Of a DNA stretch of 64,000 nt, positions 2,791-4,142 are shown piece by piece. This stretch comes from Fusobacterium sp. JB019 (GTDB taxonomy: Bacteria > Fusobacteriota > Fusobacteriia > Fusobacteriales > Fusobacteriaceae): contig JAUTCN010000019.1 of NCBI GenBank assembly GCA_030673965.1, positions 1 to 64,000 on the forward strand, read 5' to 3'. The stretch's first letter is position 1. Every line of letters starts with the position of its first letter. Under the pieces are notes generated by a model, which saw only the letters and a list, made by a program, of their open reading frames with translations, was not told the origin of the DNA and ran no database searches. Made by a program: the position numbers and the translations under genes.

Positions 2791-2806
2791 ATTTAAAAAA
2801 TTTTAT

Positions 2807-2835
2807 TTGACATATTTATCAAAATAGTATATCCT
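2807..2835 (+). promoter_or_regulatory. Promoter of the asnA leader transcript
   Basis: A perfect TTGACA (2807-2812), a 17-bp spacer and TATCCT (2830-2835). Initiation is predicted near 2842, 26 bp before the leader-peptide start. Confidence 0.75.
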
Positions 2836-2867
2836 ATTACGTATATTAAAAAAATTGGAGGATACAA

Positions 2868-2933
2868 ATGAAAGACTATATTGTTTTAGTAAATAATAAT
2901 AACGGCAATATGTCCGGATTTGAACTTACTTAA
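2868..2933 (+). CDS. Asparagine-rich leader peptide of asnA
   Basis: A 21-codon ORF has a strong GGAGGA ribosome site (2857-2862) and a consensus promoter. Codons 9-14 read Asn-Asn-Asn-Asn-Gly-Asn (2892-2909), so 5 of 6 consecutive codons specify the product of the downstream enzyme AsnA. It ends 131 bp before the asnA ribosome site, and a terminator lies between. The placement and codon content are those of a ribosome-stalling attenuator peptide. It resembles no stable protein, and its role is inferred from this arrangement. Confidence 0.85.
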   Translation: MKDYIVLVNNNNGNMSGFELT

Positions 2934-3046
2934 TGTTTAATTACATTTTAAGGGCAAATCCATTTTATCTTGTTTAAATTGAGATTTGTACCCTGATTAA
3001 TTAGTTAATTTAAACCATTTGGGTACTAAACCTAAATGGTTTTTTT
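2892..3046 (+). promoter_or_regulatory. Transcription attenuator of asnA (mutually exclusive RNA stems)
   Basis: Four competing pairings can be read. Stem 1:2 is GGATTTG (2916-2922) with CAAATCC (2955-2961). Stem 2:3 is AGGGCAAATC (2951-2960) with GATTTG-ta-CCCT (2983-2994). Stem 3:4 is GTACCC (2988-2993) with GGGTAC (3021-3026). The terminator is stem 4:5. If a ribosome stalls on the Asn codons, segment 1 stays free, 1:2 forms, 3 is released to pair with 4, and the terminator is blocked. If the ribosome reaches the stop codon it covers segment 1, 2:3 forms, and termination follows. This logic is my inference from the complementarities. Confidence 0.75.
3012..3046 (+). terminator. Attenuator terminator before asnA
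   Basis: A 12-bp stem with one G-U pair (3012-3023 with 3031-3042) is followed by seven T residues. It sits 15 bp before the asnA ribosome site, so it must be bypassed for asnA expression from the upstream promoter. Confidence 0.9.
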
Positions 3047-3073
3047 ATTTTAAATTTTAAAGGAGTGATTTTT

Positions 3074-4084
3074 ATGAAAAAATGCATCATACCACCTGGA
3101 TACCAAAATAAATTAAGTTTATTTGAAACTGAAATAAGTATAAAAAAAGTTAAAGACTTTTTTCAAAAATCTTTATCTTATGAATTAAACTTAACTAGAA
3201 TTTCTGCACCTTTATTTGTAAGTGAAGCTTCTGGGCTTAATGATGATTTGAATGGTTATGAAAGAGCTGTTGATTTTGATATTAAAACTGTTCCTGGAAA
3301 TTTTGCTGTTGTTCATTCATTAGCAAAATGGAAAAGAATGGCATTAAAGAAATATGAATTCCCTATGCATGCTGGACTTTATGCTGACATGAATGCTATC
3401 AGAAGAGATGAAGATGAATTAGATCCTTTACATTCTATATATGTTGACCAATGGGATTGGGAACTTATTATAAAAAAAGAAGAAAGAAATGCTGAATTTC
3501 TTAAAAAAATAGTTAGAAATATTTTTAGAGCCCTTAAAAAAACTGAAGAACACATCAACAGAGAATACCCTCTTCTTAGCAAAAAATTACCAGAAGAAAT
3601 AACATTTATAACTTCTCAAGAGTTAGAAAATGCTTATCCTGAACTTACTCCAAAAGAAAGAGAACATGAAATAGCTAAAAAATATAAAGCTGTTTTTATT
3701 TCTCAAATAGGAAAAACTTTAGAATCTGGTGAAAAGCATGATGGTAGAGCACCTGACTATGATGATTGGGATTTAAATGGAGATTTACTTGTATGGTATG
3801 AACCATTACAACAATCTATAGAACTATCTTCTATGGGAATTAGAGTTAGTGAAGAATCTCTTGATAAACAACTTACTTTAGCAGGAGTTACCGAAAGAAA
3901 AGAGCTTCCTTTCCATAAAGCTCTACTTAACAAAGAATTACCTTATACAATAGGTGGAGGAATTGGACAATCTAGAATTTGTTTATTTTTCTTAGAAAAA
4001 ATTCATATTGGAGAAGTACAAGCTTCTGTTTGGCCAAAAGAAATGATTGAACATTATGAAAAACAAGGAATTAAATTTCTATAA
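3074..4084 (+). CDS. asnA: Aspartate--ammonia ligase (ammonia-dependent asparagine synthetase)
   Basis: The 336-residue protein belongs to the class II aminoacyl-tRNA-synthetase-like AsnA family, making asparagine from aspartate, ammonia and ATP. Family signatures seen are VHSLAKWKR, LHSIYVDQWDWE, RAPDYDDW, ELSSMGIRV and the C-terminal GGGIGQSR. The in-frame GTG at 3065 is inside the AGGAG ribosome site, so the ATG at 3074, 8 bp after it, is the start. It is monocistronic, with the Asn leader attenuator upstream and a bidirectional terminator downstream. Confidence 0.96.
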   Translation: MKKCIIPPGYQNKLSLFETEISIKKVKDFFQKSLSYELNLTRISAPLFVSEASGLNDDLNGYERAVDFDIKTVPGNFAVVHSLAKWKRMALKKYEFPMHAGLYADMNAIRRDEDELDPLHSIYVDQWDWELIIKKEERNAEFLKKIVRNIFRALKKTEEHINREYPLLSKKLPEEITFITSQELENAYPELTPKEREHEIAKKYKAVFISQIGKTLESGEKHDGRAPDYDDWDLNGDLLVWYEPLQQSIELSSMGIRVSEESLDKQLTLAGVTERKELPFHKALLNKELPYTIGGGIGQSRICLFFLEKIHIGEVQASVWPKEMIEHYEKQGIKFL

Positions 4085-4100
4085 TATTTAATTTGTTATT

Positions 4101-4142
4101 AAACTCAAGAAATAATTATTGTTTATTTCTTGAGTTTTCTTT
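4101..4142. terminator. Bidirectional terminator between asnA and the LysR gene
   Basis: A perfect 15-bp inverted repeat (4101-4115 with 4123-4137) lies between convergent genes. The downstream arm falls within the last codons of the minus-strand LysR gene, whose stop is at 4116-4118. Confidence 0.8.

Follow-up and report, generated by a model that had tools for sequence, protein, structure and literature searches.

The region upstream of asnA in the window, i.e., the whole 64,000-nt stretch of Fusobacterium sp. JB019 DNA analysed here, very likely forms a ribosome-mediated transcription attenuator that couples asnA to charged tRNA-Asn. We assign this reading a probability of about 0.92; no expression data are available. 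Ribosome-mediated attenuation is a known kind of control, and what appears to be new here is the amino acid, a modular scaffold shared family-wide and an inverted five-segment parity. We conclude that Fusobacteriaceae have a retargetable family of such attenuators, apparently not described before, to which the asnA element belongs.

The 283-nt intergenic region 2791-3073 holds the promoter, the leader ORF, segments 1-4 and the terminator. The features are listed below, where A1 denotes an alignment of thirteen window-type leaders that align end to end and A4 adds more distant members. A4 was fitted to the model and is thus biased towards structure.

2807..2835, + strand: sigma-70-like promoter TTGACA-17-TATCCT (consensus scan, 10/12 matches; most homologous leaders are preceded by a comparable pair at about the same spacing)
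2857..2861, + strand: Shine-Dalgarno GGAGG of the leader ORF (sequence)
2868..2933, + strand: leader peptide ORF MKDYIVLVNNNNGNMSGFELT, 21 codons (sequence; SD-preceded Asn-run ORFs in relatives)
2892..2909, + strand: control codons AAT AAT AAT AAC GGC AAT, 5 Asn of 6 (sequence, alignment A1)
2916..2922, + strand: segment 1 GGATTTG, partner of segment 2 (97.8% of cells paired; compensatory pairs: one in A1, two in A4)
2952..2961, + strand: segment 2 GGGCAAATCC, partner of segment 1 or 3 (staged folding; native-vs-swapped test)
2983..2993, + strand: segment 3 GATTTGTACCC, partner of segment 2 or 4 (staged folding; native-vs-swapped test)
3021..3026, + strand: segment 4 GGGTAC, pairs with segment 3 as the antiterminator (A1: 93% paired cells and a single compensatory pair; staged folding)
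3012..3046, + strand: intrinsic terminator, hairpin 3012-3042 plus U tract (scan; pairs changed on both sides: four in A1, seven in A4)
3061..3065, + strand: Shine-Dalgarno AGGAG of asnA (sequence)
3074..4084, + strand: asnA, aspartate--ammonia ligase (asparagine synthetase A; Pfam PF03590, E 3e-107; NCBIfam TIGR00669)
4101..4137, + strand: terminator 3' of asnA (scan)

The leader ORF runs from the ATG at 2868 to the TAA at 2931-2933, with its Asn codons at 2892-2903 and 2907-2909. Segment 4 is part of the terminator hairpin, where it lies in the 5' arm and the loop, and 15 bp separate the end of the U tract from the asnA Shine-Dalgarno. Most homologues also carry a promoter-like pair, its -35 hexamer 59-66 nt 5' of the leader ATG. 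asnA itself starts with the ATG at 3074 and scores 350.6 bits for TIGR00669 (cut-off 292.8). Given the terminator that follows it, the gene is apparently monocistronic; its neighbours in the window are alanine-racemase-like and LysR-type genes and not the asnC that adjoins AsnC-regulated asnA in E. coli.

An initial annotation, made from the sequence alone, had proposed a consensus promoter, a strong Shine-Dalgarno, an ORF of 21 codons in which 2892-2909 encodes Asn at 5 of 6 positions, overlapping complementarities 1:2, 2:3 and 3:4, and a terminator 15 bp before the asnA Shine-Dalgarno. All of this held, the complementarities by exact positions and staged folding and the terminator by sequence and scan, though the -10 hexamer of the promoter is merely a 4/6 match. 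The element meets the following attenuator criteria: a leader ORF with ribosome-binding site lies 5' of a structural gene, an intrinsic terminator sits between this ORF and asnA, the control codons match the amino acid made by the downstream asnA product, and mutually exclusive helices are selected by ribosome position (the latter as a folding prediction only). The trp-type criterion, i.e., control codons overlapping segment 1, is not met, and a stall at Asn codons 1-4 leaves segment 1 free.

We compared the leader with shuffled sequence and with other asnA loci. Among 3000 dinucleotide shuffles of the intergenic region (283 nt), one produced an SD-preceded ORF with at least 5 Asn in 8 codons, and folding of the leader transcript yields z = -4.6. 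asnA is present in 78 of the 98 Fusobacteriota genomes; an SD-preceded Asn-run ORF (at least 4 Asn) was found at 35/79 Fusobacteriota asnA upstream regions (shuffles: mean 0.4, maximum 2), and at none of the 78 asnA loci of the genome collection, which come mainly from Firmicutes and include a single one from Fusobacteriota. Many Fusobacteriota asnA genes lack an Asn-run leader, among them all Leptotrichiaceae-like ones, for which no Rfam leader was found either. The genome of the window has a second asnA (C2:547097; 90% protein identity) with an Asn leader of its own, MKKSIILTTINNNNNNGNMSGFDLT (L002/L139), and an attenuator element at C2 546847-547005.

Two further asnA loci were observed in an altered state. 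For genome G019 (L169/L027), the Asn attenuator is intact and an inserted, partly masked stretch parts it from asnA, such that control of the gene may be broken there. For G056 (L146), the start of the leader with its Asn run is 78 nt away from asnA, and the remaining attenuator parts and the terminator are absent, which might reflect a deletion or an assembly artefact.

The checks on relatives suggested with the initial annotation support its reading: the Asn run and the chain of stems are conserved before asnA and show compensatory changes, i.e., neither loss of the run nor lack of stem covariation, either of which would have refuted it, is observed. The Asn run is kept in leaders whose flanks diverge. 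Pairs changed on both sides number four in the terminator and one in helix 1:2 for A1; for A4, the respective values are seven and two, with 50 such cells compared to 13.9 in shuffles. Helix 3:4 is paired in 93% of the A1 cells and shows one compensatory pair. Helix 2:3 alone, when assessed on A1, is nearly invariant and shows no covariation. Segments that have two partners each would be expected to behave in this way, but this is no proof thereof. The spacing is conserved as well: counted from the first base of the final Asn codon, segment 1 begins 7-9 nt on in 20/20 elements, and in 19 of them the stop codon lies 13-16 nt past the start of segment 1.

To score the window, we used staged folding of the named helices, i.e., the RNA left free by the ribosome was folded as segments 2, 3, 4 and the terminator emerge. 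With the ribosome at Asn codons 1-4, helix 1:2 forms with 0.96-1.00 and helix 3:4 with 0.99 once segment 4 is out. With the ribosome at the stop codon, helix 2:3 reaches 0.96 and retains 0.88 once segment 4 is out, with 3:4 at just 0.15. A stall at the fifth and last Asn codon gives a mixed fold without a clean ON state. When no ribosome is present, 1:2 forms, with an intermediate value for 3:4 (0.44). The picture is the same under both ribosome footprints that were assumed. We consider the exclusive helices and the fold favoured at each ribosome position to be shown, as are anatomy, conservation and covariation.

For the window, staged folding was used in place of an equilibrium score that we had computed for all homologues. 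This score showed no discrimination in most members of the genus with MRGF leaders, and the terminator of G020 had been misidentified. Within the MRGF-leader genus and G053, 2:3 is enclosed in equilibrium folds by an outer helix that joins segment 1 to the 3' extension of segment 3, and the two states are not separated in most of them; discrimination is also poor in G035, G036, G034 and G097. At equilibrium, the completed terminator always prevails (0.92-0.97). Antitermination must therefore be kinetic, which is an inference.

The proposed mechanism is as follows. When Asn-tRNA is plentiful, the leading ribosome would reach the stop codon at 2931 and cover segment 1; segments 2 and 3 would then pair, segment 4 would remain free and the terminator hairpin 3012-3042 would form. 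When Asn-tRNA is scarce, the ribosome would stall on any one of Asn codons 1-4 (2892-2903), i.e., 5' of segment 1, such that 1:2 forms and segment 3 is freed. Helix 3:4 would already be in place by the time the terminator's 3' arm is transcribed, and RNA polymerase would continue into asnA. That stalling occurs in the cell, that 3:4 is kinetically trapped there and that transcription responds are inferences. The initial annotation had put forward the same logic (a stall giving 1:2 and 3:4, completion giving 2:3 and the terminator), and the masked staged folding supports it except for the mixed outcome at the fifth Asn codon. The annotation missed that the parity is inverted relative to trp and that the scaffold is common to a family of many amino-acid specificities.

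This family was identified and counted only via covariance models. The first model (R1), built on 13 asnA leader sequences, recovered, at E about 1e-7, asnA leaders that it had not seen, from G053 and from a diverged genus. It also matched two elements before metN (E 6e-4 and 8e-4), where the leader reads MRNFEFRQLNMMMMLWKGL. A second model (R2), i.e., the R1 set plus the newly found elements, has matches in 44/98 genomes. Related genomes are not independent and the E-values of both models are rough.

The elements with other codon runs (L181-L241, from Fusobacteriota genomes G002-G097) carry Met, His, Ile, Thr/Ile, aromatic, Tyr or Pro codons. Met runs precede metN, metG, metY (O-acetylhomoserine sulfhydrylase), hom (homoserine dehydrogenase) and lysC (aspartate kinase); Ile runs precede ilvD and a class IV aminotransferase gene (ilvE-like), and a Thr/Ile run precedes asd. 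The aromatic runs NWYFYYYF and SFWYFYYF are found before the DAHP synthase gene (aroF), and a Pro run (PIPPR) before putP (PutP). His runs (HHHHHR) are found before genes of family-3 solute-binding proteins, whose specificity is not established, and before a hisZ-like gene. Since the model contained Asn and Met codon columns only, the runs of the other amino acids did not attract these matches. A few cases have no plain fit: a Met run lies upstream of an SBP_bac_5 gene, an Ile run upstream of a BASS transporter gene and a Tyr run upstream of agcS.

The genome of the window holds, besides its two asnA elements, one before a hisZ-like gene (L241, C2:309269-309410; HSHHH, E 5e-4) with the leader ...HSHHHKDKGL. 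A similar leader, LYYHHHRSKGL, lies before a hisZ-like gene of Terrisporobacter petrolearius (L247); transfer between the phyla is conceivable. Tandem attenuators, both with Tyr runs, were seen before an agcS-type amino-acid carrier gene (L230:301-452 and L230:499-640). Two weak matches (E 5.9) occur in the genome of the window, L245 (C5:30420) and L246 (C5:174349). L245 might be a Pro attenuator: its leader starts with GTG and ends in NPMVP, and the gene that follows encodes a PutP-like symporter. The R2 match L237 has no fitting leader and was taken as spurious, as were L248-L250 in Firmicutes.

We also compared native pairings with swapped ones for 59 distinct elements, where partners were exchanged between amino-acid classes. 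Native helices show lower median energies throughout, i.e., -10.3 vs. -5.9 kcal/mol for 1:2, -13.6 vs. -5.4 kcal/mol for 2:3 and -14.1 vs. -6.3 kcal/mol for 3:4. For 1:2 we report the median, as the mean is an artefact caused by a single element that has no duplex. Among the elements left out of training, 2:3 beats the swapped median in 41/41.

The long Asn-rich leader peptides MFINFNNNNYNC... found before asnA in two other genera represent a second architecture (L135, L137, L138, L140, L141, L143, L144, L147, L149, L150, L161). For these long MFINFNNNN leaders, the start region pairs with a segment following the Asn codons (-17 to -26 kcal/mol), and this segment in turn pairs with the 3' half of the terminator (-8 to -12 kcal/mol). 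The fold takes in the leader's own Shine-Dalgarno and start codon. We hypothesize that they may form a separate, trp-like architecture. In another phylum, Pseudobutyrivibrio and relatives (L251-L271) carry an Asn-run leader, MAFTSMLNNLNNNNNNSVNNNQGI and variants, before the tRNA synthetase gene asnS in 17/20 genomes looked at.

The asnA leader shares with the trp-type attenuators of E. coli (trp, phe, ilv, leu, thr) a translated short ORF with control codons, alternative helices, an intrinsic terminator before the gene and, by inference, the response to charged tRNA. It differs in amino acid, phylum and gene, as well as in its five segments and inverted parity: in trp, the control codons lie in segment 1, whereas here it is the finishing and not the stalled ribosome that masks segment 1. 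The his operon leader of enterobacteria likewise has a control-codon run and more than four segments. It forms an even chain A-F in which the stalled ribosome masks A, whereas the asnA leader is an odd chain.

Amino-acid-specific leader peptides outside Proteobacteria are described for Actinobacteria (PMC1262725) and for bacilli, where His leaders precede hisS and hisZ (PMC2965389); the latter work notes that Proteobacteria and Actinobacteria were the groups in which such systems were previously known. Neither text mentions Asn leaders, and Fusobacteria are not mentioned in PMC2965389. The motifs uORFC-8-2 (cysS, Rhodobacterales) and uORFC-13-1 (aroF, Acholeplasma) of PMC8632094 are also proposed uORF attenuators with cognate amino-acid codons, from different taxa; asnA is not mentioned there, though Fusobacteria were among the phyla screened. 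In the literature searched, we found no Asn leader-peptide attenuator and none in Fusobacteria; only open-access literature was covered, so absence is not proof. The initial annotation knew of no described case for asnA.

Among the rival explanations, we first consider the classical trp parity, where a stalled ribosome masks segment 1 and frees segment 2 for the antiterminator, and a finished ribosome allows the terminator via another pairing. This is the textbook arrangement, and the long MFINFNNNN leaders of a different Fusobacteriaceae group do look trp-like. Within the window, however, it is 3:4 that blocks the terminator and not 2:3 itself, and segment 1 lies wholly 3' of the Asn codons and is covered by a ribosome that has reached the stop codon. 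The parity obtained from staged folding is the opposite one, and the geometry is fixed in 20/20 homologues. We thus consider trp parity very unlikely.

The leader could alternatively be a T-box, a riboswitch or a protein-binding leader with an incidental Asn ORF. The T-box (RF00230) of Firmicutes shares with our element the gene, the tRNA-Asn charging signal and transcription antitermination, and differs in that it binds the tRNA directly without a leader peptide. Such T-boxes do exist before Firmicutes asnA genes: as a positive control, we found one before 5/10 checked non-fusobacterial asnA loci, and the genome of the window has one T-box elsewhere. The Rfam search of the window, however, reported no known leader but tRNAs only, and no RF00230 match at or above the gathering score, and at asnA there was no Rfam match. 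Among the 98 Fusobacteriota genomes and under stricter filters, 20 show T-box matches, at most three each, and above the gathering score there are two genomes with one each. Furthermore, the Asn run is kept amid diverging flanks, and the runs become Met, His, Ile, Pro or aromatic before the respective genes. This explanation is very improbable, too.

A third possibility is that the leader senses a general slowdown of translation, e.g., by antibiotics, or acts by translational coupling or Rho, and does not read charged tRNA-Asn at an intrinsic terminator. Leader ORFs of the former kind exist, e.g., those of erm and msrD. Here, however, the codon runs are amino-acid-specific and fit gene function, and an intrinsic terminator with U tract covaries, which leaves little room for this view. 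Finally, functionless AAT repeats and hairpins arising by chance in AT-rich, low-complexity DNA are all but excluded: the genome is AT-rich, but the shuffle controls, the covariation and the conserved geometry speak against chance.

Returning to ribosome-mediated attenuation, the asnA switch should, by inference, turn the gene on when asparagine is short, and the inverted parity predicts that the gene is also on when leader translation is blocked. We lean, by a modest margin, towards a bolder reading: one retargetable scaffold would serve much of Fusobacteriaceae amino-acid metabolism, its specificity (Asn, Met, His, Ile, Thr/Ile, aromatic, Pro) would depend on nothing but the codon run, and its five-segment logic would be inverted, such that an untranslated leader is ON and not super-terminated. 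It would replace Firmicutes-type T-boxes and include the first Asn-specific attenuators. Leader-peptide attenuation is known chiefly from Proteobacteria and Actinobacteria. If true, the modular Fusobacteriota family, including its apparently undescribed asparagine specificity, would show how amino-acid supply is sensed in a phylum where T-boxes are few, and it offers dozens of natural codon swaps for studying how ribosome position selects RNA structure.
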